The notes beneath the pieces are model-generated. The model was not told the origin of the DNA and ran no database searches. It saw only the letters and a list, made by a program, of their open reading frames with translations. 64,000 nt of DNA from Nitratireductor luteus (GTDB lineage: Bacteria > Pseudomonadota > Alphaproteobacteria > Rhizobiales > Rhizobiaceae). How positions within the stretch are numbered: position 1 is the first letter of the stretch; every line of letters begins with the position of its first letter. A program made the position numbers and the translations under genes. Of the stretch, positions 10,221 to 56,103 are shown one piece after another. The stretch spans positions 124,001 to 188,000 of the forward strand of contig NZ_JAOANW010000009.1 in assembly GCF_026162365.1 (NCBI RefSeq). Direction: 5' to 3'.

Positions 10221-10288
10221 TGCAAAGCAGCCGGAAACGCAAGGCGTGTCAGTTAAAGCCCTGCGGCAGCTTCCGGTTTTGCGCAGTT
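10221..10288. repeat. 68-bp three-copy element, copy 1
   Basis: On the + strand: TGCAAAG (10221-10227), 19 nt, TGTCAGTTAAAGCCC (10247-10261), then CTTCCGGTTTTGCGCAGTT up to 10288. It spans the last codons and stop of the sulfotransferase gene and lies about 200 bp before the dehydratase start. Copies 2 and 3 are at 17259-17325 and 25217-25284 with the same spacing between blocks. Confidence 0.75.
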
Positions 10289-11166
10289 GCCGTTTCGGAT
10301 GTCTCCGCTCTCCTTTCCCCGTCACTTCCCGGCATTTCAAGGGACCCGCGCAGCCAATGCGACAAGTCGCGACGGAGCAGACGGCCCAGCATATCGACAT
10401 CCGGCTCGTAGTGGTCGATCAGCCGTTGACGCAGAGCGTTTGGCAATGGCGGATAGTGTATTTCCTTTGCGAACGCAGCGTGCAGGCGGCGAAACGACGT
10501 AGTCTCCCGCAGAGGTGCGACAACCGGCTTGAGCGGGCGAAACAGGCGGCGCATGGCGGGGCTCAGCATCGGAACGGTCTTGTCCTTCACCTTGCCGCGC
10601 AGCAGGTGATCCGACCCGTCGTCGGACAATCCCAGGAAATTTCTAACCCTGGCGAGTTGCTCTTTGGGGCAAGCGCCCACTGTTTCATAAAGAGTGACCA
10701 GGATGCGCTCGTCCGGGAAGCGGTCGAAATAGATCTGTAGCTGACGATAATAGAGGCCAGCGCCAATCAGGCGGGTATCGTGCGATAGGGTGGGGTCGAG
10801 ATAGCGCTCGATATCACTGCCCACCTCGCCGCGCCGGTACATCATGCAATAGTCCGAATAGGCGCGTTCAACGGGGTTGCGGAGCTGTACCACAAGCTTG
10901 GCGTTCGGCACTTTTCGGGCGATGCGGTCGGCCGCCTCGGGCCTTTCCAGGTAGGAGTTTGATTTTTCTCCGACCACGCGCTCGCCGTCATTCAACGGAA
11001 ATTGCGCTAGATACCAGTCATCGCCCCTGGCGAACTCGCGGCTGAAGTAATGCAGTTCGGGATCCGGCATCGAAACGACAGGGTCCGCCTGAAGAGATCG
11101 CTGCAGCCAAGTGGTGGCGCTCTTTGTCGCGCCGATGATCAGGAAATGGATATCGTCAAAGGTCAT
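10249..11166 (-). CDS. Sulfotransferase domain protein
   Basis: A 305-residue PAPS-dependent sulfotransferase. The 5'-phosphosulfate loop is FLIIGATKSATTWLQ near the N-terminus (residues 8-22) and the 3'-phosphate motif is RNPVERAYSDY. The family (heparan N-sulfotransferase-like, NodH-like) transfers sulfate to sugar hydroxyls or amines; in this locus the acceptor is probably the repeat unit or its lipid-linked form. The start at 11166 forms an ATGA overlap with the upstream glycosyltransferase stop; an ATG at 11178 is possible. The last codons (GFN then TGA) lie inside copy 1 of the three-copy element, so the element dictates the C-terminal residues. Confidence 0.88.
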   Translation of the reverse strand: MTFDDIHFLIIGATKSATTWLQRSLQADPVVSMPDPELHYFSREFARGDDWYLAQFPLNDGERVVGEKSNSYLERPEAADRIARKVPNAKLVVQLRNPVERAYSDYCMMYRRGEVGSDIERYLDPTLSHDTRLIGAGLYYRQLQIYFDRFPDERILVTLYETVGACPKEQLARVRNFLGLSDDGSDHLLRGKVKDKTVPMLSPAMRRLFRPLKPVVAPLRETTSFRRLHAAFAKEIHYPPLPNALRQRLIDHYEPDVDMLGRLLRRDLSHWLRGSLEMPGSDGERRAETSETATAQNRKLPQGFN

Positions 11167-12380
11167 CGAACCGTCCATTGATCGGAATTGCGCTGAATAT
11201 TGCGCGGTTGCTCTTGACCGCTGAGCAGCACGCGATAGATCGCCATGAGCTCGCGCGCATGCGTTTCCACGCCGTAGCTGGCGTAGGCGCATTCGCGTGC
11301 AGCCCGTGTGATCCGGCTTCGGTAGCCGCGGTCGGTCAGGAGCGAATGTACCGGCTCGACGAAACGCTCCGGCGCCTCGGGAGGCACGAGAAGGCCGGTG
11401 ACACCATGTTCGATGGCTTCGGGATTGCCGCCGTCATCGGTCGCCACGACCGGCGTACCAAGGAACATCGCCTCAATCAGCGTGCGCCCGAAGGGCTCGC
11501 GAACAGCGGTGATCAAAAGAATGTCGATCGCCTGCATCCACGGTTCCACCGGGCTGCGGAAACCCATCAGCCGAATCCGGCTGCCTATACCGAGTGCTTC
11601 GGCCCGCTGTGTCACCGCCTGCCCGAGTTCGGGGGATTCGGTTCCAGGAGCGCCGAACAACAACCCCATTACCGGCATCTCAGGATAGCGCCGGACATAG
11701 GCAGCAACAGCTTCGACAAAATCCAAGGGCCGCTTGCGCTCGATCAGGACGCCGAAATAGCCTAGGAACAGCGTTTCGGAAGAGCAGCCGAGCGCCTCGA
11801 TCAGCATTGCTCGGGCAGCAGACCTGTCGCAGGTTTCAGACGGTACGTCGAACGGGCTATGGATGACAGAAAGCTTCCGGCTAACGTCGACCAGCGGACG
11901 TTGCGGCCTTGCGAACCGGGAAACCGTCACGATGTGGCCTGCCACCAGAGGCGCCAGCCAGTTCACCCCGCGCGCATCCGGATCGCCACGATGATGCCAG
12001 ACCTGCCGCGCCCCGGCCAGCCGCGCCGGCAAGGCCCACACCGCATGGATACGACCATCATTAGTATGGACAAGGTCGATATCGTTCTCTTTCAGGAAAT
12101 GGGTTAACGGTGCCAGTGCACGGATTGTATAGCGCAGACCCCGCAGCGCAGCGGCGGGCTGGGAATTGCGGCCAGGAAACGGCCTGGCAGGAGCTCTGAC
12201 GAAGGGAATGCCTCGCTCGGTCAGGTAGCCCGCCAGCGGCCCGTCGACGACGTGTAGCGCCACAAGAGCCCGCACAAAGCGGCGGTCCAAAGCCTGGATA
12301 AACCGGACCGCCGAGACATGACTGCCGCCAATCTCATCGCCGACGAATGGAAAGCAAACAGAGATAGGTCGAGCAAGCAT
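11163..12380 (-). CDS. GT4-family glycosyltransferase
   Basis: A 405-residue retaining glycosyltransferase of the GT-B fold, cytosolic or peripheral to the inner membrane. The N-terminal domain opens with ISVCFPFVGDEIGGSHVSAV (glycine-rich acceptor loop); the C-terminal domain has the E-x7-E motif in EPFGRTLIEAMFLGTPVVA, the diagnostic donor-binding segment. The start at 12380 has GAGG 5 nt upstream; the frame is open 34 codons further, but those residues do not resemble the family. It overlaps the sulfotransferase by ATGA, so the two are translationally coupled. Donor and acceptor sugars cannot be told from sequence. Confidence 0.88.
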   Translation of the reverse strand: MLARPISVCFPFVGDEIGGSHVSAVRFIQALDRRFVRALVALHVVDGPLAGYLTERGIPFVRAPARPFPGRNSQPAAALRGLRYTIRALAPLTHFLKENDIDLVHTNDGRIHAVWALPARLAGARQVWHHRGDPDARGVNWLAPLVAGHIVTVSRFARPQRPLVDVSRKLSVIHSPFDVPSETCDRSAARAMLIEALGCSSETLFLGYFGVLIERKRPLDFVEAVAAYVRRYPEMPVMGLLFGAPGTESPELGQAVTQRAEALGIGSRIRLMGFRSPVEPWMQAIDILLITAVREPFGRTLIEAMFLGTPVVATDDGGNPEAIEHGVTGLLVPPEAPERFVEPVHSLLTDRGYRSRITRAARECAYASYGVETHARELMAIYRVLLSGQEQPRNIQRNSDQWTVR

Positions 12381-12498
12381 GAAATCCTCAAGAGGAGCGG
12401 CGGAACCCGAATTCGGTTTCTGGAGGCAACCGTGCCGATGCCTGAACTGAAGATACGCATAAACCTTTCTGGCTGAAACCATTGCTCCGTCAGGAAAA

Positions 12499-13956
12499 TC
12501 AGCAGCTTGTGGCCGTATTGTCAGTCAGAGATCTCCGTCGCGTCTCACCGATGCGCGGAGGCTCCTCTTTCGGCAGGGTTGCATCTGGCGCGTCCGGAGG
12601 CAGGGCGTTGGGATGCGATTTTATTTCTCCATGGAAAGCGATGAGCAATCCGGCAAGCCAAAGCCCTCCCATCACCGCATGGGCGACATTCGCCCCCATT
12701 GCGCCCAGTACGGGAATCATTGCGAGCGCCGTTGCGTGGAAGACAAGTGTTGAAACGACGACGATTTTCAGAACGACTGGTTGGCGCCCCATGGCAAGAA
12801 GTGCCGAACGCACCGCGCTGCCGCTCAGCATCATCGTCACTGCGATCAACTGCACGACGACCAGGGGACCTGCCGCCTCGAATTCGGGGCCAGCCGTCCA
12901 GTGGAGCACCGGCTCGATCCAGAGCAACGCGGCCGTGAACACCGCTACTCCGAAGGCCAGCAGGAAGATCTCGGTCTGCAGAACGATGCGGCGAAACTCC
13001 GATACCGCCCGTTGCGCCCACAGCCGGGAGATGTCGGGATAAACCACCGCCTGCACTTGAACCCCCAAATGCAGCACGAGGCGGCCGAGACGTTTGGCCA
13101 CGTGGTAAAACCCGGCCGCGGGCGCCCCAGCGAGCGCTCCAACGAGCAGAGTGTCGAACTCCGTTGTGCTTGAACGCACCGTCATTTCGACCTTGCTGCC
13201 GAGAGTGAAAGCCCATAGCCCGTTGAAACGCTTCGTCACTCCGGTCAGTGGCGCCTTCAGAAGGTTCCGGACTCCCTGGCGGCGCAGTTCGACAAAGGCC
13301 AGGGTTAGAGAGATCAGCGAACCGGCAACCTGACTCACCGCCCAAGCAACCACGAAATAGGAAAGACCGGCGCCCGCCAAAAAGCCTGCAGCACACAGAA
13401 TGAGACGCAATATCGTGCTGATCAGCGAGCCGTATGCAATCAGCCTGAATCGGCCGGCCAGACGCAGAACGGCTGTCGGAAACCCGTCGACCTGAAACAA
13501 CAGGACGGTCGAGTAGATAAGAACGTGCTGAACATTGCTATCGCTGATGCCGACAAGCGGTCCGAAGATCAGGGCGAAGCCGACTGCCATTCCGTACGCC
13601 GTCAGCGCCGCCGAAAGGTCGACGAGAAGACCGAATTTCATCAATGCCCTGTAGGCGTTTCCATCTTCCCGCCCCCGTTCCTCGGCGCCATACTTGATGA
13701 GCGGCTGCCAGGTCTGGAACGCGATCAGGAGCTGAACTGATCGGGCATAGCTGTATGTAAGAGCGAGGATGCCGAAGTCATTGGGACCGAGGGCGCGGGC
13801 CGTTACCACGAAGGCCAGGAGCCCGACGACCGAGTTCATGATGTTGCCGGTAATCAAATGACCGATGCTGACGAGCCGGGCACGCAGCGACGCCTCGTCG
13901 CGCCAGAACCTGCGGGCACGCCGACCAAGTGAGTGAACGGTGGCCGGTAAAGACAA
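12499..13956 (-). CDS. Polysaccharide flippase (Wzx-type, MATE/MOP superfamily)
   Basis: A 485-residue integral membrane protein with about 12-14 hydrophobic segments and the family pattern at the N-terminus (GHLITGNIMNSVVGLLAFVV, then ARALGPNDFGILALTYSY). Such proteins flip undecaprenyl-linked repeat units across the inner membrane. Start: TTG at 13956, with a G-run 6 nt upstream; no better-placed start exists. It is 118 nt before the GT4 gene on the same strand. Together with the Wzy-like polymerase and ExoP/ExoF-like proteins it defines a Wzx/Wzy-type pathway. Confidence 0.87.
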   Translation of the reverse strand: MSLPATVHSLGRRARRFWRDEASLRARLVSIGHLITGNIMNSVVGLLAFVVTARALGPNDFGILALTYSYARSVQLLIAFQTWQPLIKYGAEERGREDGNAYRALMKFGLLVDLSAALTAYGMAVGFALIFGPLVGISDSNVQHVLIYSTVLLFQVDGFPTAVLRLAGRFRLIAYGSLISTILRLILCAAGFLAGAGLSYFVVAWAVSQVAGSLISLTLAFVELRRQGVRNLLKAPLTGVTKRFNGLWAFTLGSKVEMTVRSSTTEFDTLLVGALAGAPAAGFYHVAKRLGRLVLHLGVQVQAVVYPDISRLWAQRAVSEFRRIVLQTEIFLLAFGVAVFTAALLWIEPVLHWTAGPEFEAAGPLVVVQLIAVTMMLSGSAVRSALLAMGRQPVVLKIVVVSTLVFHATALAMIPVLGAMGANVAHAVMGGLWLAGLLIAFHGEIKSHPNALPPDAPDATLPKEEPPRIGETRRRSLTDNTATSC

Positions 13957-14123
13957 TCGATGCCCCCCACCACAGCGCCCTGCCCTATTACGGCTGAGCA
14001 GCGATACGAAATAGCGATGCGTCGCCCCGTGAGATGGACGACACTATGCGGACGCCAGATGATCCCACCCGACGGCAAGATGCTATAAGGTCGGATGACG
14101 ACACTTCCCCGACAGGAAAAACC

Positions 14124-14849
14124 TTACATTTCCACCGCATCATGGCCGGTGCGGATGCCGCGATCGCGCTGCAGCCAGGCTAGGCACTCGTCGAGTGCAT
14201 CCAGGCTGGTGATGCGCGCATGAGGCTCATGTGCGGCACTGGGAGCCGTCAGATGATGAATCCGCGCGGGACGCGCTATCTGCACGGTATACCAGCCACG
14301 GGCGCGAGGAGTCACGAAATCCTTGACCGGATTGTCCGCCACGTAAACGAGCGGGGCGCGCGCAGGTCCGGCCCACTTCTCGACCTGTGCGAAAGCACGT
14401 GGATGCGGCTTGCCGAAGCCCTGACCGAACGCTCCGGTGCAGATGATGCAGCCGATATATTCCTCGAGCCCCAACGCAAGCGTTTTCGCGCGCTGAGTGG
14501 AGCTTGGGCCATCGGTTATCATGGCGCAAGGGATATCGCGGGAGCGCGAGACGAGATAGCGCGCCGCGTCGGCAGTCAGGTCGATATCCGGTCGATGCGA
14601 CCGATAGACCTCTACGAGTTGCTCAACCAGCCCGCGATCAGGCCCTAGGCCGAGTTTCATCAACGCCAGGTCGAAAACGTGGAGCCGTTCTCCCGCCGCA
14701 AACAACGTGAGGCACGCTTGGCCAAGCCCATCCACGCCGGCCGTCCGGCGGAGCCAAGCATCGGCGGCGGCAAAGCCGCTCAGCACGAAATCGCGTTCTA
14801 GATACAAGGTGTCGTCGAGGTCGAAAACGACCAGTGTCGGCGCGGACAT
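14124..14849 (-). CDS. HAD-superfamily hydrolase
   Basis: A 241-residue haloacid dehalogenase-type phosphatase. Motif I is VVFDLDDTLYLERDF, with the nucleophile Asp in DLDDT; motif II is MITDGPSSTQ, and the late acidic motif is VYVADNPVKDF. Length fits a subclass I or YjjG-like phosphatase. The start at 14849 lies 5 nt after the ATP-grasp stop, so both are in one transcript with the DegT gene. Its substrate could be a phosphorylated sugar or other intermediate used to decorate the polysaccharide; there is no direct evidence. Confidence 0.87.
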   Translation of the reverse strand: MSAPTLVVFDLDDTLYLERDFVLSGFAAADAWLRRTAGVDGLGQACLTLFAAGERLHVFDLALMKLGLGPDRGLVEQLVEVYRSHRPDIDLTADAARYLVSRSRDIPCAMITDGPSSTQRAKTLALGLEEYIGCIICTGAFGQGFGKPHPRAFAQVEKWAGPARAPLVYVADNPVKDFVTPRARGWYTVQIARPARIHHLTAPSAAHEPHARITSLDALDECLAWLQRDRGIRTGHDAVEM

Positions 14850-14854
14850 GACCC

Positions 14855-15817
14855 CTACCCACGGAAAATCGCCGCGTCGTAGCGCAGCATCAACGCCTCG
14901 GAGCGCCAATCGTCATGCGCAGTCGAAGGCAGGTCGACTACCTCCTCCAGCAGCCAACGCGTGTATTCAGCACCCGCGTAATGAACGAGCGGATAGCCGC
15001 CGCCAAACCGCGCATTTATATCGAAGACGCAGGGCCCGACCCTCTTGTCCACAATCACTTGGAAGCAAAGAACGCCGCGCGCAGACGGTAACGCCCGTGC
15101 GACACCTTCCGCCAGTTCGCGGAGCACCGGAACGCGCTCGGTCTGCCCTTTCTCGACCTCTCCGGCACGAACGCGCAAACGCCGATGCACCACGGCGTTG
15201 CACAACACGCCGTCCTGGTCGAGGAACATATTGACCGTGTATTCCGGCCCGATGAGCAATTGCTGCAGTATCATCGGTTCATCGGGAACTTCGGGCAGAT
15301 CCGCAGAACTGTTCGCTACCTTGATGTTTCGGCTTGCGCTGCCGCCGGTGGGCTTCAAGAACATCGGCCAGACGATCGGATAGGCGGAGGCATGCGCTGC
15401 CTCGAGCGGCACGGTCCAGGGCACAGGAACACCGGCTGCCTCCATCACCTGAGCCGTCTTGAGCTTGTCGCGGACTACGTCGATGACGCAGGGCGGACTG
15501 ACATGTACGCGTGCGCCGACGGACCTGAACCGTTCCGCAGAAGCTGCAAGCGGTGCCAGTTCCGGATCGATTGTCGGAACGACAAGCTGGACACCGCCTT
15601 CGCGCACGATATCGAGCATCGCTTCCACGAATCCCGGATCGTCGCATTTAGGCACCGCAAAGGCCCGGTCGGCCGCCTGGCAGGCTGCACTAAGCTGCGG
15701 CTCCCGATCGCAAGCGAGCACGTCCAGCTCGATTCCGAGCGTCGCCGCAGACCTGCGGAAACACTCGATGAGACCGACCCGTCGCCCTGCTGACGAAACC
15801 AGGATGGTAACGCGCAT
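14855..15817 (-). CDS. ATP-grasp ligase (carbamoyl-phosphate-synthase-like)
   Basis: A 320-residue ATP-grasp protein. The pre-grasp domain opens with VTILVSSAGRRVGLIECFRR; DKLKTAQVMEAAGVPVPWTV and MFLKPTGGSASRNI form the ATP-binding lid, and FDINARFGGGYPLVHYAGAEY carries the metal-binding Asn/Glu region. Proteins of this kind ligate carboxylates to amines or make carbamoyl-type intermediates. The genuine start is ATG 15817; the long open frame to 16189 runs antisense-free through the neighbouring aminotransferase and is ignored. Position between a DegT aminotransferase and a HAD phosphatase suggests amide formation on an amino sugar, which is inference. Confidence 0.85.
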   Translation of the reverse strand: MRVTILVSSAGRRVGLIECFRRSAATLGIELDVLACDREPQLSAACQAADRAFAVPKCDDPGFVEAMLDIVREGGVQLVVPTIDPELAPLAASAERFRSVGARVHVSPPCVIDVVRDKLKTAQVMEAAGVPVPWTVPLEAAHASAYPIVWPMFLKPTGGSASRNIKVANSSADLPEVPDEPMILQQLLIGPEYTVNMFLDQDGVLCNAVVHRRLRVRAGEVEKGQTERVPVLRELAEGVARALPSARGVLCFQVIVDKRVGPCVFDINARFGGGYPLVHYAGAEYTRWLLEEVVDLPSTAHDDWRSEALMLRYDAAIFRG

Positions 15818-15846
15818 CTGTTTCGTGCCACCCGCTCTGCAAACAG

Positions 15847-17136
15847 CTACGATACAAGTGCCGCGCGCCGTCGCGCGATGCCAGGCGTCAGATCGGCCGT
15901 AGCTTCCTGCATGACCCTGCACACAGCGCGGGCTACCTTGTGCATGGCGGCGCGGCTTTGGCAGGGGTCGACCAGAAACGCCAGACTTGTCTCTCCGAGT
16001 TCGGCGGCGACCGGAAGACGCGCCGGTGGGGCCATGCCGGAATCCGTGAAGGCTTTTTCCCGATAGATCTCCGGGCAACTCCCCGTGAAACCGACAACAC
16101 CGGATGCATTGAGTTCTGACAGTATCCGATCCCGGCTCCAGCCGTTTTTCAGCCTTTCGGGCCGCACGAATGTGTAGAAGCGATACCACGCGTGCCGCAT
16201 GTGCGGCGGCGGCTGCGGGGTTCTCAACCCCGGCAGATCGCGCAAGGCATCGATAAGAACGGCTGCATTTGCCGCGCGCTGCGATTGCCAGCCGGGCAGC
16301 CGCTCGAGCTGCCTCAGGCCGATCGCTGCTTGGATTTCCGTCATCCGGTAGTTGGAGCCAAAGCTTTCATGAAGCCAGCGGAAGCCGGGCGCATGGCCTT
16401 TCTGGAACACTGTCTCATAGGCCTTGCCATGGTCCTTTCGGCTCCAGGCCCGCCTCCAGATCACCTCGTCGTCCATTGCCAGAAGCCCGCCTTCGCCACC
16501 GGTACTCAAGATCTTGTCCTGACAGAAGGAGAAGGCCGATATGTCGCCGAAGCTTCCGACCGGGTGGCCGGCAAATGTAGCGCCATGAGCCTGAGCGCAG
16601 TCCTCGATCACGAATATCCCATGCCGGCGGGCAAGGCGCATAATCGCCGGCATGTCGGCGGGCCAGCCTGCCAGGTGAACCACGATGACGGCCTTGGTGC
16701 GCGGGGTGAGCACTTCCGCAATGGTCTCCGCGGTTATGGCCTGGCTTTCCGGGTCGACATCAGTAAAGATCGGCACGCCGCCGGCCATCGGCACGCAGGC
16801 GGCGGAAGCGACAAAGCTGCGTGGCGTGACAATGACCTCATCGCCCGGCTGAAGGCCGATCGCATGAAGCGCGACATCGAGCGCAACCGTTCCATTCGCC
16901 AGTGCGATCGCGCGGCGACGGTCGAGCAACGCTGCATAGGTATCCTCGAACTCGGTCACCTTGCCACCCGTCCACGCATTGACCTTGCCGGATCGCAGCA
17001 CGGCCATGGCGTCCTCGATCTGCTCCTCGTCATAGTAGGGCCAACGGTTCCCGACCGCCCCGTCGCGCACCGACTTCCTCGTGCGCGCGCCGAACCTGCG
17101 TGCCTGTACTTCCTTGGCGGCCAGATTGTTGTCCAT
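15847..17136 (-). CDS. DegT/DnrJ/EryC1 aminotransferase
   Basis: A 429-residue PLP-dependent sugar aminotransferase. The PLP lysine is K208 in SFCQDKILSTGGEGG; VIEDCAQAHGA (Asp179) contacts the pyridine nitrogen and SNYRMTEIQAAIG is a family hallmark. It probably aminates a keto sugar, the most likely source being the WbpM/CapD-type dehydratase. The start is ATG 17136, with GAGGAG 9 nt upstream. Residues 1-8 are MDNNLAAK, the same as in the dehydratase, with the three nucleotide differences all synonymous. The normal fold starts only near residue 30, so this is an added N-terminal arm. Confidence 0.92.
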   Translation of the reverse strand: MDNNLAAKEVQARRFGARTRKSVRDGAVGNRWPYYDEEQIEDAMAVLRSGKVNAWTGGKVTEFEDTYAALLDRRRAIALANGTVALDVALHAIGLQPGDEVIVTPRSFVASAACVPMAGGVPIFTDVDPESQAITAETIAEVLTPRTKAVIVVHLAGWPADMPAIMRLARRHGIFVIEDCAQAHGATFAGHPVGSFGDISAFSFCQDKILSTGGEGGLLAMDDEVIWRRAWSRKDHGKAYETVFQKGHAPGFRWLHESFGSNYRMTEIQAAIGLRQLERLPGWQSQRAANAAVLIDALRDLPGLRTPQPPPHMRHAWYRFYTFVRPERLKNGWSRDRILSELNASGVVGFTGSCPEIYREKAFTDSGMAPPARLPVAAELGETSLAFLVDPCQSRAAMHKVARAVCRVMQEATADLTPGIARRRAALVS

Positions 17137-17258
17137 CACGACCAGCTCCTCTGTCGAACAGCGGTAGAAACATCGGCCTGCGCTTTGACACGCAGGCTGT
17201 TGCCTAGGACGCCGACAGGCGTTCCGGCTTCCGCCATCCTTGAGAGATCGGCCAGGCT

Positions 17259-17325
17259 TGCAAAGGGGCGCGAAACCCAACGTTTGTCAGTTAAACCCCG
17301 CCACCGTTTCCGGTTTTACGCAGTT
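17259..17325. repeat. 68-bp three-copy element, copy 2
   Basis: TGCAAAG (17259-17265), 19 nt, TGTCAGTTAAACCCC (17285-17299), then GTTTCCGGTTTTACGCAGTT to 17325, one nucleotide shorter than copies 1 and 3. It covers the stop of the small hypothetical gene and lies about 150 bp before the aminotransferase start. Confidence 0.75.
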
Positions 17326-17814
17326 TCCGGCATCCCGGCTCAGGCGCTGTTCTGGTTGTGCTTTCCAGGCAGAATTGGCCGTCTGGGGATTCGTGGGGAT
17401 AGGGGCAGACGTTGCGTCGCACACACCGCTTTGACCACGGCTGTCGCCCATGCGCCTGGCAATGTCGTGGCCGTGTCGATGAGCGTGGCTGACCGGCACG
17501 ATCATCCGAGGCGCGACTCCCCACCGGCACACCATGGCGCGGAAGTCCGCGGTTGCCGCGAAAATGATTTCCGCGGAAAGAACGGCTTCACGCACGCGCG
17601 TTTCATCGTCGGCGTCAATGTAAAGGACACCCGGGATATTCAGCGGTAACGACGGAACGATTGGATCCAAGATGAGATTGACCGTTTGCGGTGAAATATC
17701 GCGCAGCACAAGAGCCACAAGGCCGTCCTGACTGGCTTGGTAGCTCGCCTCGATCAATCGCGCCGGTAGGCGGCCGTTCGATCTGCTGATTTCTACCACG
17801 TCGCGAATATGCAT
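17287..17814 (-). CDS. Hypothetical protein in polysaccharide locus
   Basis: A 175-residue protein that I do not recognise. The first 110 residues look folded (alternating hydrophobic strands and helices: DGLVALVLRDISPQTVNLIL, IPGVLYIDADD, AEIIFAATADFRAMV). The last 65 are rich in Asp, Ser, Asn and Gln and look disordered. It has no signal peptide or membrane segment. Its final residues (CVKPETVAGFN) and stop lie inside copy 2 of the three-copy DNA element. It is divergent from the lyase-like gene at 18117 and upstream of the aminotransferase. Codon use is like that of its neighbours; it may be a truncated gene. Confidence 0.6.
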   Translation of the reverse strand: MHIRDVVEISRSNGRLPARLIEASYQASQDGLVALVLRDISPQTVNLILDPIVPSLPLNIPGVLYIDADDETRVREAVLSAEIIFAATADFRAMVCRWGVAPRMIVPVSHAHRHGHDIARRMGDSRGQSGVCDATSAPIPTNPQTANSAWKAQPEQRLSRDAGNCVKPETVAGFN

Positions 17815-18116
17815 GGCCGCCTCTGTGCCGGGTTGCGCTGCATCCGACCCCCGTAGTGCTGCCCGTGCAACACCTTCGCTACCGCCCGGAAGATCGCGGC
17901 CAGACCGGGTGCACCGCTATGATAATGAAAGTGGGCAGTCCGGCCCCCATAGGATCAGCCGCGCGCCTGTCAGGTTTTTTCTCCCTCCAAGCCTGCTGAC
18001 GGCTTCATTAGAATCCGGTCGATGAGCGGTTTTTTTCACTACGAATCCCGTGGGCCGGCCGGGCCGGTCCGCGCAGATTTGACAGGCACGCAAGAAAGGC
18101 TCACCGGCAATATCCC
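17815..18116. promoter_or_regulatory. Divergent intergenic region with TGTCAGG-type motif
   Basis: About 300 bases between the divergent hypothetical gene and the lyase-like gene. TGTCAGG followed by TTTTTTCTCCCTCC is at 17968-17988, related to the motif before ugd. A second T-run (TTTTTTTC, about 18031-18038) lies nearer the lyase-like gene. No gene is seen. Confidence 0.4.
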
Positions 18117-19583
18117 ATGCGATGGATTTATGTTCCGATAGTGTTGGCTGGCCTGTCACAGCCTTCCTGGTCTCAATCGAGCTCCACGGATGACCTGGTT
18201 GCGCGTGCGGGAAATCAGATGCGGAGCGCGGCTATCTATTTTTCCGAGCAGGTCGCGCGCTACGGCAGTTATGTCTGGAACGTCTCGCCAGATCTCGAGT
18301 GGCGGTCTGGTGAAGGCGTCACGACGGACACGCAGGGCTGGGTACAGCCGCCCGGCACGCCGGCGGTGGGGCGGGCATTCCTCGCCGCATTCCACGCCAC
18401 CGGGGAGCGCCTTTATCTCGATGCGGCAATAGAAACCGCCGAAGCTCTGCGTGCCACGCAGCTCGAATCTGGCGGCTGGTGGGCGCGGCTTGAATTCGAT
18501 CCGGCATCGCGCCTGTCCTGGTGCTACCGCGATAACCACGCCGACCGTCCGCCCTGCCATGAAATGGAGGGCAACAAGGAACGCAACGCGACGATGCTCG
18601 ACGACAACATGTCCCAAAGTGCACTGGCTTTCCTGATGCTCGTGGACGGGGCGCTGGAAGGGACCCATGAGGGTGTACGCGATGCTGTCGTCTACGGCCT
18701 GCGGGCCCTGGCCCAAATGCAGCATCCCAACGGTGCATGGCCCGTGCGATCCGATCACAGGATGCCGGATGCGTTAACGACGTCGGCATGGCGTGCACGC
18801 ATGCCCGGCGACTGGGCGCGGGAGTATGTGGAGCCCGAGGGAGAGATTTACATCCTCAACGACAACCTGCAGCGGGACGTGATCAGGCTGTTCGCCCTTG
18901 CCTATCGCCTGTATGAAGAGCCGGAGTATCTGGCGGCCGCGCGACGCGGCGGCGAGTTTTTGTTGCGGGCGCAATTGCCGGGTGCCCAGTCGGGTTGGGC
19001 TCAAACCTACAATGCCGATCTCGAGCCGATCTGGGGGCGCAAGTTCGAACCCCCTTCCATCGCATCCGCGGAGACAGCAGGCGCCATCGATGCATTGCTC
19101 GATCTTTACGAACTGACAGACGAACGCCGCTATCTTGAGGGCGCGCAAAGTGCAGCCGAGTGGCTGCGCGCTGTGCAACTCCCGGATGGAGACTGGGCTC
19201 GATTCTACGAGCTTGGCTCCAACGCCCCATTATATTTCGACGCCGACTACAACCTTTCCTATTCCGCGCAAGGAGCACCGGATCACTATAACTTTAAAGG
19301 CGAATTCGACGTCGCGCATGTTCTGGAGCGCCTGGAAGATGTTAGCCGCAACGGCACGGCTACCGCCAAGACGCCGGAAGCCTGGGGCAGCGCCTGGGAA
19401 GCGGAGATTGAGGACGTCCTGGCGGCAGCCGACCGCAAAGGCCGCTGGGTCGAGGATGGGAAAATAAGCTCCGCGACGTTCGTCGAAAATCTTGGCCTCC
19501 TCGCCCAGTTCGTTGCACACGCGAGAGGTCGCCCGATACCCAACCAAACCAAGCTATTACCGTTGCCGCAAACGGGGCCATAG
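18117..19583 (+). CDS. Secreted (alpha/alpha)-barrel polysaccharide lyase-like protein
   Basis: A 488-residue protein with a signal peptide (MRWIYVPIVLAGLSQPSWSQ, cleavage likely after WSQ). The mature part has repeated helical pairs carrying GRAFLAAFHATGERLYLDAA, ALRATQLESGGWW, LRALAQMQHPNGAWPV and LRAVQLPDGDWARFYELGSN, i.e. W/G-rich turns of an (alpha/alpha) toroid. The WARFYELGSNAPLYFDADYN segment recalls PL10-type pectate lyases. A periplasmic or secreted enzyme that trims or degrades the exopolysaccharide (uronate-containing if ugd supplies it) is likely. PL10 membership is tentative; an epimerase or glycosidase of similar fold is possible. Confidence 0.65.
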   Translation: MRWIYVPIVLAGLSQPSWSQSSSTDDLVARAGNQMRSAAIYFSEQVARYGSYVWNVSPDLEWRSGEGVTTDTQGWVQPPGTPAVGRAFLAAFHATGERLYLDAAIETAEALRATQLESGGWWARLEFDPASRLSWCYRDNHADRPPCHEMEGNKERNATMLDDNMSQSALAFLMLVDGALEGTHEGVRDAVVYGLRALAQMQHPNGAWPVRSDHRMPDALTTSAWRARMPGDWAREYVEPEGEIYILNDNLQRDVIRLFALAYRLYEEPEYLAAARRGGEFLLRAQLPGAQSGWAQTYNADLEPIWGRKFEPPSIASAETAGAIDALLDLYELTDERRYLEGAQSAAEWLRAVQLPDGDWARFYELGSNAPLYFDADYNLSYSAQGAPDHYNFKGEFDVAHVLERLEDVSRNGTATAKTPEAWGSAWEAEIEDVLAAADRKGRWVEDGKISSATFVENLGLLAQFVAHARGRPIPNQTKLLPLPQTGP

Positions 19584-19667
19584 CCATTTCGAGTTCGGGC
19601 TTCGCCGCTGGAGCCCCCAAAGCTGGACTCGGTGTTTCTTCAAAGGCTGCGTGCCCAGGGAGGGAGA

Positions 19668-21092
19668 ATGTCCGGAAAGCAGGAACGCGAAGAGAGCGTA
19701 TGGCTTGCCGTTACCGCTTGCACACTCGTTGCGCTCTATTTCCTGGCCAGTACGCTCTATGCATTGGTGCATTTCGATGAGTTCGCCTCCGCCATACCGC
19801 AGTTTCTGCGTTATGTGCTTGCGCCCGCCCTATTGGGTGCGGGTTTCCTGGCAGTCGGACTGTTGGCAAAACCACGTTGGTCGAGACCGGTCGGGATCTA
19901 CGGGCTGAGCCTTCTGGCGGGGCTCTTTCTGTTCGAAGGATTTCTCACGATCCGCCAGTTGTCGGTGCACTTCGCCTTGCTCGGCAGGCTCGATGAAGAT
20001 CAGCGCGCCGTACTGTCGGACGACAAGGACTTCGTTCGCGGCTTCACCCTGCGGCAGCTTAATCTTCTTGCCGGCGTGAAAGGTTTGCCGGAAACGATGC
20101 TGTCCGGCTTTCCAAGGTCGACAACGCTGCTGTGCTCACCCCCCGGGCAGGTCATCACCTACAAGGCCGACCGCTACGGCTTCAACAATCCGGACAGCGT
20201 GTACGGAGCTTCGGTCGATCTCATGCTTCTCGGCGATTCCTTCGTAGAAGGCTTCTGCCTCAGGCCGGGCGTGGATCTGGCATCGCGGCTGCGGCAGCAT
20301 GTGCCCAATACGGTGAGTATGGGAATACGCGGCAACGGTCCTCTGATCGAACTTGCCACGCTCGGGCGATACGGACCCATCCTGAAGCCCAATCATGTCG
20401 TGATGGCTTTTTTCGAGGGGAACGACTGGGAAAATCTCCAACGGTCGCTGAACCAGCCGTGGCTCAGAATTGCACTACAGCCGGATGCGAGATTCGGTAC
20501 CCCATCCAGTGCTGTGCAAACGGTTCACAAGGCCCGCTCTGTCATGGATGAAATCAACAAGGAAGAAGTAACAATGACCGACCTGGTTGCGCGAAGATCC
20601 TTCTTGCGCAACTTCGCCGCTCTTCAGATGACAGGGACCTCCCTCGGCCTTCTTTACCCAAAGGTCTCGGGGGAGATCCCGGAGTTCCAGCAAACATTGC
20701 GACGGGCAAAGAAACTTACCGAAAGCTGGGGCGGATGCTTTTATCTTCTGTACATACCTCGGGTAGATCGCTTCGTCGGCCTGTTCCCGTCAGACCCCGG
20801 CTTTAGTCACCTCGAGGATCTGGTTCGTCAGGCGGCGGCGGCCGAAAATGTGCATGTCATCCATCTGAAGACCGCCTTCCGCCGTCATCCCGAGCCGGCG
20901 CGGCTATATGCACCGGACGCACATTTCAGTCAGGAGGGAGCCGTTCTGGCCGCCGACACGATTGCGCACGCACTATCAACAACACCAAGCTCCTCGGCCG
21001 GACGAAGCTGCGCCCCCGTCCTCGTTGACAAATCCTTTGGACCGGGGACGAATTTGCTCGGAGGAGATGAAGGACGGAAGTTCGGAGGATGA
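19668..21092 (+). CDS. Membrane-anchored SGNH-hydrolase-like protein
   Basis: A 474-residue protein with three N-terminal membrane segments (VWLAVTACTLVALYFLASTL, YVLAPALLGAGFLAVGLLA, GIYGLSLLAGLFLFEGFL), then a periplasmic SGNH domain: block I is LMLLGDSFVEGF with the nucleophile Ser, the middle block is MGIRGNGPLIEL, and the Asp-His pair is in DAHFSQEG. Enzymes of this fold in polysaccharide loci add or remove acyl groups (AlgX/AlgJ-like). The start at 19668 follows a GGGAGGGAG ribosome site. It lies 84 nt after the lyase-like gene on the same strand and is probably cotranscribed. Confidence 0.75.
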   Translation: MSGKQEREESVWLAVTACTLVALYFLASTLYALVHFDEFASAIPQFLRYVLAPALLGAGFLAVGLLAKPRWSRPVGIYGLSLLAGLFLFEGFLTIRQLSVHFALLGRLDEDQRAVLSDDKDFVRGFTLRQLNLLAGVKGLPETMLSGFPRSTTLLCSPPGQVITYKADRYGFNNPDSVYGASVDLMLLGDSFVEGFCLRPGVDLASRLRQHVPNTVSMGIRGNGPLIELATLGRYGPILKPNHVVMAFFEGNDWENLQRSLNQPWLRIALQPDARFGTPSSAVQTVHKARSVMDEINKEEVTMTDLVARRSFLRNFAALQMTGTSLGLLYPKVSGEIPEFQQTLRRAKKLTESWGGCFYLLYIPRVDRFVGLFPSDPGFSHLEDLVRQAAAAENVHVIHLKTAFRRHPEPARLYAPDAHFSQEGAVLAADTIAHALSTTPSSSAGRSCAPVLVDKSFGPGTNLLGGDEGRKFGG

Positions 21093-21117
21093 TCGCAAAG
21101 GCTCGTGGCAACAGCTG

Positions 21118-21143
21118 ATACCAAGGGCTATGGCCCTTGGTAT
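21118..21143. terminator. Perfect 11-bp hairpin between convergent SGNH genes
   Basis: ATACCAAGGGC (21118-21128) and GCCCTTGGTAT (21133-21143) form a perfect 11-bp stem with a TATG loop, located between genes ending at 21092 (+) and 21161 (-). No T-run follows on either strand. A bidirectional terminator is the simplest reading. Confidence 0.6.
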
Positions 21144-21160
21144 GGCATGCAGGTTGTACC

Positions 21161-22483
21161 TTATAGCGACTTTACCCAGTCCAGATAATCGTCCGCAAGT
21201 GTACAATCCGCGGTGACGGGTGGATACTCGACAAACTCTCTCTCTGGTCTCGTGCCTTCCGATCCGCCGCGCCAAGTCTGCCAGAGCCACTGGTCGAGGA
21301 CATCGGCGACAACGAAATGGCCATAGGGGGTCAAATGTTTGTCGATGACGCCATAGGTGCGGTCTGGATCCTCGCTCGCCAGTCGCGGCGTGACATCGAG
21401 GACGGATGCGTTCGGCGTTTGCGAAACGAAACCACGCAACATTTCACGCTGGCTTTCGGACGCCATGCCGTCGTCCCGGCCGACGATTTCCGGCCAGCCC
21501 GGAATCACCAGCACAAGCAGGTCGGCATCGTTCGCCCGCGCCTCCTCCGCCAGTCCGACAAGCAGACGCCGCGTCAACTCCAACGCATTGTCGATGTTGC
21601 GGCGCGCATCCCAGTTTTCAACTCTGGATCGAATCACCGAGGAATATATCAGCCTGTAAAGGTTGCTTGTTCTCCAGAGGGACGCATGAACCCCCAGGAG
21701 GAAAACCGTGCCCTGTGTGGTTTTGGCCGTTATCTTCGCGAAATCTATCTCGACGCCATCTCCCGCCATCCTTGTGCGCTCGACATTGTCATCGATGTCG
21801 TTGGGCAGGGTGAATTGCTGAATCACCAATCGGTGTGGAATTCGTGTTCCCTTGTCCTGGTAAATCCTCAGGGTATTTGCCTGGCCATAACCGCCGGCGC
21901 TGTAGATGCGAAACCCCGTATCGGGGTACCACTGGTTCATGAGGCTGGAAAAGGTCTCGTATTCGTTGACCAGCGTTCCCCGCGCAAAGGAATCGCCAAG
22001 GACGATAACCTGCTCCCCACCGTGGTTGTGGTTGTCGCGGAACCCTTCGTCGTTCACTTTGACATAGTACCAGGGATCGCGGCTGCTGTTTCGCTCGAAA
22101 TAGCTAGCACCGGGTGTTTCGATGTAGCCGAATTCCGGATGCTCCAGATGGCGAGAATGAGGAGGCGCACAGAATACATATTCGCCTTCACCGGCCTGTA
22201 CCTGAAGCTGTGGCACAGCCGCCAGAAAGACCTCGGCGATCCCCACTGCAAGGGCCACCGAAAAGGACAACAGAAGGAGGTTCCCCGCCATCCCGGTGCC
22301 CTTTGGCTTCGCCTTGCCGTCGGTACGGCTGATCCGTCGCGCTATGGAGGGGCCGGGTTCATGCGCTGGGGTGCCCGCAGTCGCCAAATCGGCCGATGGC
22401 TCGATGGCGTGGTCGCCTGCGACAGGGCGCTTCCTTGCCGTTCGGCGCGAACGCGCCACTGGCTTGTCGATATTCTTGCCCAT
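21161..22483 (-). CDS. SGNH-hydrolase-like protein
   Basis: A 440-residue protein with a basic, disordered N-terminal region (about 60 residues), one membrane anchor (NLLLLSFSVALAVGIAEVFLA) and a periplasmic SGNH domain: VIVLGDSFARG (Ser nucleophile), YSAGGYGQANT (Gly block) and DKHLTPYG (Asp-His). It probably acts as an acyl- or acetyl-transferase or esterase on the polysaccharide. The start at 22483 follows a G-rich ribosome site (GGGAGGGGGGGC). It lies 100 nt downstream of the carbamoyltransferase, in the same transcript. It is a different protein from the SGNH gene at 19668, sharing only the fold. Confidence 0.75.
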   Translation of the reverse strand: MGKNIDKPVARSRRTARKRPVAGDHAIEPSADLATAGTPAHEPGPSIARRISRTDGKAKPKGTGMAGNLLLLSFSVALAVGIAEVFLAAVPQLQVQAGEGEYVFCAPPHSRHLEHPEFGYIETPGASYFERNSSRDPWYYVKVNDEGFRDNHNHGGEQVIVLGDSFARGTLVNEYETFSSLMNQWYPDTGFRIYSAGGYGQANTLRIYQDKGTRIPHRLVIQQFTLPNDIDDNVERTRMAGDGVEIDFAKITAKTTQGTVFLLGVHASLWRTSNLYRLIYSSVIRSRVENWDARRNIDNALELTRRLLVGLAEEARANDADLLVLVIPGWPEIVGRDDGMASESQREMLRGFVSQTPNASVLDVTPRLASEDPDRTYGVIDKHLTPYGHFVVADVLDQWLWQTWRGGSEGTRPEREFVEYPPVTADCTLADDYLDWVKSL

Positions 22484-22583
22484 CCTGCCCCCCTCCCGCT
22501 CGGCAGCTTCGATAAGCGGCAAAAGATCGCTTTAATAGTACATCAGCGGTTCCGCTCTGCCGCAAGTTGCGCCCGGACACGCC

Positions 22584-24425
22584 TCAATCCAATTCGAATT
22601 CTTCCCTGTAGTCTCTTTTCAGCGCACAGGGCTGATCCTCCTTGCGCAGCACGGCATTGCCGATGATAAGAAGCTCGATTTCGGTGCCCATGAAGCAGCG
22701 ATAGGCGTCCTCCGGAGAACACACGATCGGCTCGCCTCGGACATTGAAACTCGTGTTGACCAGAATCGGACAGCCGGTGCGCTCCTTGAAAGCCGTCAGC
22801 AACCCCCAGTAGCGCTGATTGGTTTCACGGTGCACGGTCTGGACCCTGGCCGAATAGTCCACATGGGTCACTGCCGGCACCTTGGAGCGTGGCACATTCA
22901 GCCGCTCGATTCCGAACAATGCGTCTTCATCCTGATTGGGCGGCACGCGCTTGTCGTCGCGAACGCCGGCGACAAGCAGCATGTAAGGGCTGTCAGTGGA
23001 CAGGTCGAACCAGTCGGACAGATCCTCGCGCCGGATGGAAGGAGCGAAAGGACGGAAGCTTTCCCGGTACTTGACCTTGAGATTGAGCATCTTTTGCATT
23101 CTCGGCGAACGGGGGTCGCCCAGGATGGAGCGATTGCCCAGCGCCCGCGGGCCGAATTCCATCCGTCCCTGCATCCACCCGACGGCCTTTTCTTCCGTGA
23201 GTGCATCGACGGTCGTTGAGATCAACTCGGATTCGGGCATGATGCTATAGACGGCGCCGGCCGCGCTGAGGCGCTGTTCGATTTCCCCTTGTGAATAAGC
23301 GGGGCCAAGATAAGCCCCCCTCATCATATCGCCGCCATTTGGGGTCCGCCTTTTACCAAGATACTGATGCCAGACGGCCAGTGCGGCACCCACCGCGCCG
23401 CCAGCATCGCCCGCCGCCGGCTGAACCCAGATATCGTCGAAGGTGCCTTCTCTCAGGATCCTGCCATTGGCGACACAATTCAGTGCAACCCCGCCTGCGA
23501 GGCAAAGCTGACGCTCGCCCGTTTCCTGCCGCGCGAATTTTGCCAGCCTCAGAACAGCCTCCTCAGTGACTGCCTGGATCGAGGCGGCCAAATCCATTTC
23601 GCGTTGCGTCAAAGGCGTGTCGGGCTTGCGCGGTTCGCCGCCGAAGAGCTCATGAAAGGCTGGCGAAGTCATCGTCAGGCCCGTGCAATAATCGAAATAG
23701 CGCTGATCCAGCCAGAAGGAGCCGTCCTCTTTGAGGTCGATCAGGTGGTCGAAAATCGTTTGGGCGAAACGGGGCTGGCCGTACGGCGCCAAGCCCATGA
23801 TCTTGTACTCGCCGGAGTTGACCTTGAACCCCGTGTAGTAGGTGAAAGCCGAGTAAAGCAGCCCCAAAGAGTGCGGGAAATGGATCTCCCTGAGCAGATC
23901 GAGGCGCTCCCCGCTGCCATGGCCGAGCGATGTGGTACACCACTCGCCTACCCCATCCATCGTGAGCACCGCCGCGCTGCGATAGGGAGAGGCGAAAAAG
24001 GCGCTGGCGGCATGGGCCACGTGATGTTCGCTGAACAACAGGGAACCATCCCATGACTTGGAACCGGCAATCTCGCCCAGCTTCCGCCTCAGCCCCTTCT
24101 TCTGAAACAGCTTCTCCTTCACCCAGACCGGTATCGCGGCGCGGAAAGAGCGAAAGCCGCCGGGCACCGTCGCAAGATAGGTCTCGAGCAGCCGTTCGAA
24201 CTTGAGGAAGGGCTTGTCGTAAAAAACTACATGGTCGATGTCGGCCATCCTGCAACCGCTTTCGGTCAGGCAGTATCTCACCGCACCAGCAGGAAAGGCC
24301 GGGTCATGCTTGCGCCGCGTGAAGCGTTCTTCCTGGGCGGCGGCAACGATTTGGCCGTCTTCTACCAGTGCCGCTGCACTGTCGTGGTAGAATGCCGAAA
24401 CCCCCAAGATGCGCACGGCTTTCAC
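22584..24425 (-). CDS. Carbamoyltransferase (NodU/TobZ/CmcH family)
   Basis: A 613-residue O-carbamoyltransferase that uses carbamoyl phosphate and ATP to carbamoylate a hydroxyl. The Kae1-like N-terminal domain has LGVSAFYHDSAAALVEDG, EERFTRRKHD and the metal-binding HHVAHAASAF; GEYKIMGLAPYG and the C-terminal ILVNTSFNVRGEPIV are also hallmarks. The ORF opens with GTG at 24425; a GTG at 24416, better spaced from GGTGAGG, may be the true start. It directly follows the DUF5989 and SxtJ-like genes, a trio seen in other surface-polysaccharide and toxin clusters. The target is presumably a sugar of the repeat unit. Confidence 0.92.
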   Translation of the reverse strand: MKAVRILGVSAFYHDSAAALVEDGQIVAAAQEERFTRRKHDPAFPAGAVRYCLTESGCRMADIDHVVFYDKPFLKFERLLETYLATVPGGFRSFRAAIPVWVKEKLFQKKGLRRKLGEIAGSKSWDGSLLFSEHHVAHAASAFFASPYRSAAVLTMDGVGEWCTTSLGHGSGERLDLLREIHFPHSLGLLYSAFTYYTGFKVNSGEYKIMGLAPYGQPRFAQTIFDHLIDLKEDGSFWLDQRYFDYCTGLTMTSPAFHELFGGEPRKPDTPLTQREMDLAASIQAVTEEAVLRLAKFARQETGERQLCLAGGVALNCVANGRILREGTFDDIWVQPAAGDAGGAVGAALAVWHQYLGKRRTPNGGDMMRGAYLGPAYSQGEIEQRLSAAGAVYSIMPESELISTTVDALTEEKAVGWMQGRMEFGPRALGNRSILGDPRSPRMQKMLNLKVKYRESFRPFAPSIRREDLSDWFDLSTDSPYMLLVAGVRDDKRVPPNQDEDALFGIERLNVPRSKVPAVTHVDYSARVQTVHRETNQRYWGLLTAFKERTGCPILVNTSFNVRGEPIVCSPEDAYRCFMGTEIELLIIGNAVLRKEDQPCALKRDYREEFELD

Positions 24426-24439
24426 GCCTCACCAGAACG

Positions 24440-24589
24440 TCAAAATAAGGTGTAGATGAAAGGTGCGACAGCCGTGCCCTGCGTGAGCACTATCAGGCCG
24501 CCGAACACGCCAAGCATGAAGAAAATCGGCAGCAACCAGAACTTCCTGCGTTCGGACATATAGGACCACAATTCGCGCACCAGTTCCAT
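24440..24589 (-). CDS. DUF5989-like small membrane protein
   Basis: A 49-residue protein found by reading the minus strand: it starts MELVRELWSYMSERRKFW, has one hydrophobic segment (LLPIFFMLGVFGGLIVL) and ends VAPFIYTLF. The start is ATG 24589 and the stop TGA at 24442-24440. The pattern WxYMxERRKFWLLP, then one membrane helix, matches the small DUF5989 proteins found between SxtJ-like and carbamoyltransferase genes. It may act as a membrane partner of the carbamoyltransferase; function is unknown. Confidence 0.8.
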   Translation of the reverse strand: MELVRELWSYMSERRKFWLLPIFFMLGVFGGLIVLTQGTAVAPFIYTLF

Positions 24590-24648
24590 TTTTCAGCCTC
24601 TCTCAGCGATTAGCTCATGGCGATCGAATACGGCAGCCCGCATGTTCC

Positions 24649-25077
24649 TCAAAACTGGTTCCGCATCGCCTCAGCACCGGCCTTCGACTGCGTGCGCGAT
24701 ATCCAGTAGCTCTCACGCTTCCTGCCGGGCCTGCGCGCGAGCGGATCGTGCCCCCTCATCCGCAACACCATGCCGATCGGGACAAAGGTCGTGGCATAGA
24801 TGCCCAGCATGATGACCGGATTGATAATCCGAAATAACAGCACCCCAAGCGCTGTCCAAAGCCGGTTCGGGCGTTCCAGCACAGCCGGCGCCGTAGCGGC
24901 CAGCAACACAAGAACGGCGCCGACGACCGCCAAGCTTGCCGTTGCGACAGTCAAATGGCCGGTCCACCAAAGTCTGACCGTTACGAAGGCAAGAAGAATG
25001 CCCCCCACAGTGAAGCCGAAAGCCCGATTGGACGGGCCTTCCAACTTCTCCTCGATCAGCCTTTCGTGGGGCGCCAC
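24649..25077 (-). CDS. SxtJ-family membrane protein
   Basis: A 142-residue protein with three hydrophobic segments (FGFTVGGILLAFVTVRLWW, ATASLAVVGAVLVLLAATA, IINPVIMLGIYATTFVPIGM), then a basic tail with RMRGHDPLARR and YWISR, typical of SxtJ-like proteins. The start is GTG 25077, preceded by AGGGAG at 8-nt spacing; a TTG at 25170 in the same frame lacks a site. Neighbours are DUF5989 and the carbamoyltransferase, which is the usual family context. Copy 3 of the three-copy element lies about 165 bp upstream. Confidence 0.78.
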   Translation of the reverse strand: MAPHERLIEEKLEGPSNRAFGFTVGGILLAFVTVRLWWTGHLTVATASLAVVGAVLVLLAATAPAVLERPNRLWTALGVLLFRIINPVIMLGIYATTFVPIGMVLRMRGHDPLARRPGRKRESYWISRTQSKAGAEAMRNQF

Positions 25078-25216
25078 TATCTGCTTCTCCCTGGCGAAGC
25101 GCACTGCCGCTCTTGGCCCGTTTGACGACAAGGCCACCCTCACCTGCCGCACGTGCGGCTTCGGTGACAAGGCGGCTTACGATTGTCGCGATCATTCTGA
25201 GCCGATCGGCACGCGC

Positions 25217-25284
25217 TGCAAAGGCACGCGGAGTCCGAACCGTGTCAGTTAAATCCCTCCGGCAGCTTCTGTTTTTGCGCATTG
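25217..25284. repeat. 68-bp three-copy element, copy 3
   Basis: TGCAAAG (25217-25223), 19 nt, TGTCAGTTAAATCCC (25243-25257), then CTTCTGTTTTTGCGCATTG to 25284. It spans the 3' end of the PIG-L gene. Here the stop codon is TAA in a different frame of the element than the TGA stops of copies 1 and 2, so conservation is at the nucleic-acid level. Confidence 0.75.
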
Positions 25285-38956: not shown

Positions 38957-38966
38957 GGGGGCTATG

Positions 38967-56042: not shown

Positions 56043-56103
56043 CGAAGGTCCTTGCGGCATCGCTTCGACGGAAATGACAAGGTTTCCCGAACGCAGACGG
56101 TAA

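Follow-up and report, generated by a model that had tools for sequence, protein, structure and literature searches.

A repeated promoter-like element in a mosaic polysaccharide locus of Nitratireductor luteus and its candidate response regulator

The stretch of DNA analysed here (the window; 64,000 nucleotides of contig NZ_JAOANW010000009.1 of Nitratireductor luteus, positions 124,001 to 188,000) contains a mosaic polysaccharide locus in which a short element recurs three times (c1, c2 and c3; Table 1). We argue below that this element is probably an activator-dependent promoter joined to the operator of a response regulator (RR) encoded in the same locus, a reading built on sequence comparison, by which scattered polysaccharide units would be switched together. 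Behind the DegT aminotransferase gene that follows c2 lie ATP-grasp, HAD, flippase, glycosyltransferase (GT) and sulfotransferase genes, and c3 precedes an open reading frame (ORF) for which SxtJ is a Pfam name only (26.9 bits, cut-off 24.4). The plus strand carries a histidine kinase (HK) gene, the RR gene, whose start was set at an internal ATG (38964) of an ORF that opens at 38847, and a cytidylyltransferase gene whose orthologue is annotated rfbF in Sinorhizobium meliloti ABS7 (tblastn 82%).

Table 1. Positions of genes, element copies, boxes and promoter-like hexamers in the window (HTH, helix-turn-helix).
Feature	Coordinates	Strand	Context	Evidence or remark
Nucleoside-sugar dehydratase/epimerase (Polysacc_synt_2)	7912..10023	-	downstream of c1	Pfam
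Element copy 1 (c1)	10195..10292	-	upstream of dehydratase gene	cmsearch 79.4 bits
-10-like CAAAAT of c1	10198..10203	-	17-nt spacer	putative promoter
-35-like TTTGCA of c1	10221..10226	-	20 nt after box	putative promoter
Box of c1, GGGCTTTAACTGACA	10247..10261	-		
DegT/DnrJ/EryC1 aminotransferase	15847..17136	-	downstream of c2	Pfam
Element copy 2 (c2)	17233..17329	-	upstream of DegT aminotransferase gene	cmsearch 75.7 bits
Promoter-like AAGGAT of c2	17236..17241	-		
Promoter-like TTTGCA of c2	17259..17264	-		
Box of c2, GGGGTTTAACTGACA	17285..17299	-		
Weak candidate box AGAAAAAACCTGACA	17968..17982	-	upstream of ORF 17287-17814	kept in 3/3 Chelativorans; score only 9.4
Carbamoyltransferase	22584..24425	-	in unit downstream of c3	Pfam
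Element copy 3 (c3)	25192..25288	-	upstream of SxtJ-family ORF 24649-25170 and carbamoyltransferase gene	cmsearch 74.9 bits
Promoter-like CAGAAT of c3	25194..25199	-		
Promoter-like TTTGCA of c3	25217..25222	-		
Box of c3, GGGATTTAACTGACA	25243..25257	-	overlaps PIG-L stop codon	
Weak candidate box ATTAAAAACCTGACG	37681..37695	+	upstream of kinase gene	kept in 3/3 Chelativorans
Histidine kinase, HisKA_3 + HATPase	38009..38956	+	proposed partner kinase	Pfam
Response regulator, receiver + GerE (NarL/LuxR) HTH	38964..39626	+		Pfam, alignment, distribution
Distal partner of fourth box, GCGCTAACCCTGACA	42538..42552	+		
Divergent fourth box GGGCTTTACCTGACG	42561..42575	+	upstream of cytidylyltransferase gene	
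-35-like TTGCGG of fourth box	42586..42591	+		
-10-like TAGACT of fourth box	42609..42614	+		
Nucleotidyltransferase (glucose-1-phosphate cytidylyltransferase, rfbF-type)	42776..43681	+	downstream of fourth box	Pfam NTP_transferase

The three copies (10221-10288, 17259-17325 and 25217-25284) have the sequences that a first-pass annotation of this DNA gave them; its length of about 68 bp fell short, the conserved stretch delimited by profile matches being about 98 bp, to which a distal block and a -10-like block also belong. The annotation had framed the copies as marking gene 3' ends. What is constant is instead the genes downstream (the dehydratase; the DegT gene or a PIG-L/DegT operon; the SxtJ-family/carbamoyltransferase unit), and the meaningful strand is the minus strand, on which each copy lies upstream of the next gene and precedes a co-directional transcription unit. 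Read on that strand from distal to proximal, the layout is a block GCGCAAAACCGGAAG, the box GGGNTTTAACTGACA, 20 nt, TTTGCA, 17 nt and CARRAT. The exact pattern TGCAAAG-N19-TGTCAGTTAAANCCC has three matches in the 4,916,682-base genome, all in the polysaccharide locus, and none in a reversed control, so that a chance density, which would have spoken against the annotation, is not what the genome holds. Allowing up to three mismatches in the core returns the same three sites only (reversed control, one), and window shuffles predict 0.02 core sites in the window against the three observed. As we read it, the box with its hexamers would be an operator before a weak sigma70-like promoter; if TTTGCA and CARRAT are the -35 and -10 elements, the box is centred near -61. 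The hexamers of c1-c3 fit the sigma70 consensus poorly. The distal block, conserved about 23 bp upstream of the box in c1-c3, may be a second, weaker site.

Related genomes, to which the annotation had looked for conservation, do hold the element, and in Chelativorans at the same positions. Three of the 16 genus genomes searched, namely this genome (G000, counted here with Chelativorans), Chelativorans salis (G007) and C. xinjiangense (G015), have three copies each in orthologous places, c1 among them. A profile of 11 copies run against 394 family genomes gave a clear element in four, these three and G170, which belongs to another genus and is the only carrier among four genomes of that genus. 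Of the two copies in G170, separated by 670 kb, one precedes the dehydratase orthologue and the other a PIG-L/DegT/ATP-grasp/HAD/flippase operon. From a species-genome collection, a DNA-pattern search returned 19 stretches, four of which pass the profile (three Chelativorans, one Mesorhizobium); the last, Mesorhizobium sp. M00.F.Ca.ET.216.01.1.1 (G402), found by this pattern, has a second copy before PIG-L, as well as the cytidine diphosphate (CDP)-sugar box described below. Since the copies stand before orthologous genes in rearranged loci (G170, G402), the element follows genes and not locus order. Left out of these counts were single three-mismatch sites in G004, G010, G012 and G013 (similar in number to the reversed control), matches with at most two mismatches in 63 of 66 family genomes (all but G000, G015 and G170; the surroundings were inspected for 27 and the matched string for the rest), four of eight profile genomes at E 0.003-0.007, and the 15 of 19 DNA-pattern stretches that fail the profile; a two-mismatch box before a 42% dehydratase homologue in G250 was counted on neither side.

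The spacing is conserved along with the blocks. In all 13 elements (nine from Chelativorans, two each from G170 and G402) a TTTGCA-like hexamer stands exactly 20 nt past the box, exact TTTGCA in 10, and 17 nt after it comes CARRAT in 10 and NARRAT in 11 of the 13; copy G402_b, found by its box alone, has TTTGCG-N17-CAGGAT at the expected place. The annotation had further remarked on a stop codon in each copy. This is so in this genome, where TGA (10249-10251), TGA (17287-17289) and TAA (25249-25251) all fall inside the box, but it fails as a conserved trait, being present at six of nine places in the three Chelativorans genomes (c1 2/3, c2 1/3, c3 3/3) and at none of three copies checked elsewhere (G170_a, G402_a, G402_b). 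The c3 (PIG-L) overlap is kept in G007 and G015, that of c1 in G015 and not in G007, and that of c2 in neither. The overlap, which is not the element's function, is mostly incidental: two of the three frames of TTTAACTGACA contain a stop. A protein-coding origin was rejected on the grounds that the genes end in different frames and the stop overlap is not kept, which agrees with the annotation's view of conservation as DNA or RNA; we favour DNA. An intrinsic terminator was rejected as well: between 10000 and 25500 there are 14 terminator-like sites, as many as shuffling predicts (14.0), and all of them fall outside the copies.

The annotation listed three copies, and a divergent fourth box escaped it. 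This box, which precedes the cytidylyltransferase gene of a CDP-sugar operon and is kept in G007 and G015, stands about one helical turn closer to its -35 (N9-11) than do the boxes of c1-c3. Across 16 CDP-sugar regions, TTGNNG lies 9-11 nt past the box in 14, namely 10 of the 12 from RR-positive genomes and all four from plasmids, followed 17 nt further by TANNNT in eight, TATTTC in five and neither in three. A tandem partner lies 23 bp upstream of the box in 9 of 12 CDP-sugar promoters, and inspection by eye places one 21-22 bp upstream in G170 and G402; the distal block of c1-c3 stands at a similar distance. In S. meliloti ABS7 the RR and cytidylyltransferase genes are separated by a gene for a group II intron reverse transcriptase (L204, 22903-24162), and the CDP-sugar box is present there.

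The RR encoded in the locus is our candidate for the protein that would read these boxes. Its receiver (Response_reg, E 5.7e-24) has D52, D53, D98, T126 and K148 (the acidic pair, phospho-acceptor Asp, Thr and Lys) invariant in 12 sequences, and its C-terminus is a GerE HTH (E 1.3e-16). Besides the kinase/RR pair, no transcription-factor Pfam domain was found in the scanned ORFs between 6410 and 50915, a set that excludes small ORFs and in which several have no family. RR orthologues of at least 57% were present in five of 24 genomes (G000, G015, G007, G170, G017), the other 19 having no match at E 1e-20 above 33%; of the five, the first four carry full elements, and in G017 the dehydratase is preceded by GGGGTTTAACTGACG. 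A search of the 394 genomes, in which six RR candidates were scored per genome, gave six more RR-positive genomes at 58-66% (G072, G382, G168, G360, G324, G229), and G402, discovered through the element alone, carries the RR at 71%.

Every one of the 12 genomes in which an RR orthologue of at least 57% was found has the CDP-sugar box, as do 4 of 4 further Sinorhizobium/Ensifer plasmid regions examined, out of 12 such records of which three others are replicons of G382, G360 and G229. In the first scorings the box matrix included the CDP-sugar boxes, which makes those scores partly circular, and the null background contained real boxes; a later scoring used a matrix from c-type boxes only and a background without the window's boxes. 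With this c-type matrix 11 CDP-sugar promoters had an empirical p of at most 0.027 (four genomes at 0/20,000; seven at 0.006-0.027), and the promoter of G017 scored 16.2 against a null maximum of 12.3. Three RR-negative syntenic loci (G180, G239, G136) share the block of GT_39703, u40754, cytidylyltransferase and CDP-dehydratase genes and are without a box (score p 0.53-0.87); in their 40-kb stretches the best RR match is 20% identical and the best HK match is 18 residues long.

More distant homologues of the RR (43-48%) occur in Methylobacterium, Methylorubrum and Lichenicola (Methylobacteriaceae, Acetobacteraceae), where, in the four annotated regions (two of the six carry no annotation), their neighbours are a kinase gene and stress-type genes (PRC-barrel, Rmf/CrpP-like and others), not polysaccharide genes. 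Each of the six regions holds two or three perfect palindromes TGTCRGG-N5-CCYGACA, 13 in 143,927 bases, all of them 2-6 kb upstream of the RR gene; three in region L215 compare with 0.01 expected. The palindrome was absent from 98,002 control bases elsewhere on two of those replicons and from 1,621,326 other bases (a figure that includes the controls and counts overlapping loci more than once). The 15-mer box of the Ensifer CDP-sugar promoter occurs without change inside one palindrome, TGTCGGGATAAACCTGACA, and the boxes of the window look like a one-sided form of the palindrome. In two unrelated gene settings the box goes with one RR family; this association, like the conservation, the spacing and the co-occurrence with the RR, is a direct result of the computation. 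Several of the palindromes in L214-L219 (Methylobacteriaceae, Lichenicola) have similar downstream stretches, e.g. GTGAGAACGGC, and perhaps belong to a separate stress regulon with a readable operator.

We propose that the kinase would phosphorylate the RR, which would then bind as a dimer to the box, itself taken as a degenerate TGTCRGG-N5-CCYGACA whose right half (CTGACA) would be strong and whose left half would be weak. Once bound, the RR would help RNA polymerase to use a poor sigma70-type promoter, TTTGCA-N17-CARRAT, starting 20 bp downstream. In this way each copy would serve the minus-strand unit behind it as an activator-dependent promoter, and one signal would switch on at least four units of the mosaic locus. 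From the sequence we infer binding, phosphorylation, activation rather than repression and the sigma factor.

A number of observations weigh against this proposal. The boxes in the window depart from the palindrome at 2-5 of its 14 positions, and the picture from nine intermediate RRs (36-46%) is mixed: a one-mismatch palindrome lies about 1.4 kb upstream of the RR in G120 and G248, another is 11.5 kb away in G211, G368 has two-mismatch sites only, and five of the nine regions hold no palindrome within two mismatches. In the six RR-positive genomes added by the 394-genome search the CDP-sugar box is present but the dehydratase has none in front of it, evidence against a strict one-to-one pairing of RR and box. 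RR, box and locus may simply travel together by linkage; the RR-negative syntenic controls number only three, and many of the RR-positive genomes are close kin. In G168 the best score on the other strand (9.0, c-type matrix) is slightly above that of its box (8.6). A kinase of this type was not found beside the RR in seven Sinorhizobium/Ensifer loci (G382, G168, G360, G324, G229, L204, L213; stretches L168, L170-L172, L174, L175, L204 and L213), so the partner assignment is uncertain, and in these loci the partner may lie elsewhere. At the promoters themselves, TTGNNG at 9-11 nt is absent from the CDP-sugar promoters of G170 and G017, and TANNNT from that of G402; the box matrix gives the distal block of c1-c3 no score above 2; and a scan with the promoter consensus gave no call at the promoters proposed for the three copies, as expected of an activator-dependent promoter, though no proof of one.

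The proposed circuit resembles several known systems in part. RcsB, which with the RcsAB box controls enterobacterial capsule operon promoters, is likewise a NarL/LuxR-type RR acting at polysaccharide operons; its operator is unlike TGTCRGG-N5-CCYGACA, and the locus RR does not pass the NCBIfam RcsB equivalog model (54.4 bits, cut-off 235). The JUMPstart/ops element, which works with RfaH, is also short and recurrent directly upstream of polysaccharide genes. The ops sequence GGCGGTAG is absent from the three copies when these are read directly, and here promoter-like blocks follow an element that, in the reading we prefer, acts as DNA. CenKR of Rhodobacter sphaeroides (PMC9275681) resembles the proposed circuit as a two-component system of an alphaproteobacterium and in its TGA-containing sites, which at activated envelope genes stand upstream of the -35; CenR is described there as an OmpR-family protein with TGA-N8-TGA direct repeats, whereas the locus RR is NarL-type (GerE), with a 19-bp dyad as its putative site and another box layout. 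The best NCBIfam profile for the RR is MctR (141.4 bits, below the equivalog cut-off of 300) and its best PDB sequence match is NarL (1a04), from both of which it differs in gene setting. We rate RR, operator and regulon as a known kind of system and this particular regulon as new; word and fixed-string searches of the open-access literature found no description of this box or RR among the matches listed.

Gene order around the copies bears on how units may have come under the element. In G170 and G402 PIG-L and DegT are adjacent behind one element, and in Chelativorans they are split by an approximately 8-kb cassette that carries SxtJ-family, carbamoyltransferase, lyase and esterase genes and has an element at each end (c3 and c2). 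The enzymes encoded behind c1 and c2, unrelated to each other, share the N-terminus MDNNLAAK; in DegT it is part of an N-terminal extension of about 31 residues absent from most relatives, the Chelativorans protein aligning with relatives outside the genus only from residue 31-32 (seven of eight cases) or residue 20 (one). The flanked cassette and the shared start suggest that a promoter copy was captured together with start codons or modules. That the element is at once a regulon operator-promoter and a joint at which the polysaccharide locus is reshuffled is an idea we offer with considerable doubt; if true, recombination at the element would bring new sugar-modifying modules into the regulon at once.

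Other explanations deserve to be set against an operator-promoter read by the locus RR. The nearest keeps the promoter and operator and assigns them to another regulator, whose gene lies elsewhere or which is a locus protein not recognised as such, with the RR merely travelling along. The box is indeed tied to the locus, whose genes co-occur, and more than half of the intermediate-RR regions lack a near-palindrome. We nevertheless think this rather improbable, given that distant homologues, in an unrelated gene setting, have perfect palindromes nearby, that syntenic loci without the RR/HK pair are also without the box, and that no other transcription-factor Pfam domain was found in the ORFs scanned. 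A different kind of account makes the element RNA: transcribed by read-through from the upstream genes, it would form a hairpin whose loop holds TTTAACTGACA and serve, in the manner of ops/JUMPstart, as a leader or as a site of processing or antitermination. RNAalifold forms 16 pairs, four of them changed on both sides; 84.7% of cells are paired against 82.4% in shuffles (20 of 500 reach this; seven of 500 reach the covariation score), and slid partners pair only 22-51%. The last gap is expected, because the structure was derived from the same alignment, and related sequences can beat shuffles without any structure; the consensus energy is only -2.7 kcal/mol. Of the covariance and motif tools that the first-pass annotation recommended, the profile recovered the 98-bp element, and covariation was modest and the fold weak.

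Individual copies also speak against an RNA element: G170_a retains TTTGCA without the 5' arm, G170_b is flanked by divergently oriented genes, in the CDP-sugar promoters the box returns with a different spacing, and the copies have no Rfam match. The genome does encode a second NusG-domain protein (284-aa frame; G000:C3:62200-62496, on another contig outside the window), possibly a specialised, RfaH-type NusG, and a second NusG-type protein is what an antitermination reading would welcome. On balance we regard RNA as a poor prospect, and among the annotation's suggestions of a bipartite recognition site, a promoter or a processed RNA, a recognition site plus promoter is favoured and processed RNA finds little support. 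Poorer still, and hardly credible to us, is the view that the element lacks any regulatory role and is a mobile or repeat element or the residue of a recent duplication. Duplication may account for some of the similarity, as the genes after copies 1 and 2 share MDNNLAAK; yet only short blocks are kept while flanks and spacers diverge, the 13 copies in three genera have fixed spacing and hold orthologous places, and the genome yields no further copies within three core mismatches.

If the locus RR does act at these operator-promoters, a candidate regulator and operator can be named for a mosaic surface-polysaccharide locus of several Rhizobiaceae, including Sinorhizobium and Ensifer plasmids, and an unnamed repeat becomes a directly testable two-component circuit. 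The locus RR would also be linked to an RR family whose palindrome adjoins stress-type genes in Methylobacterium and Lichenicola; one family would then use the same operator in stress and polysaccharide settings, with its targets in each genome readable from sequence. Of the two weak candidate boxes in Table 1, neither of which is relied on here, the one before the kinase gene (ATTAAAAACCTGACG) would make autoregulation possible.

Elsewhere in the window, a thiamine pyrophosphate (TPP) riboswitch lies at 55938-56054 (+), above the Rfam gathering score, and 63705-63994 (-) matches Rfam 5_ureB_sRNA at 127 bits.

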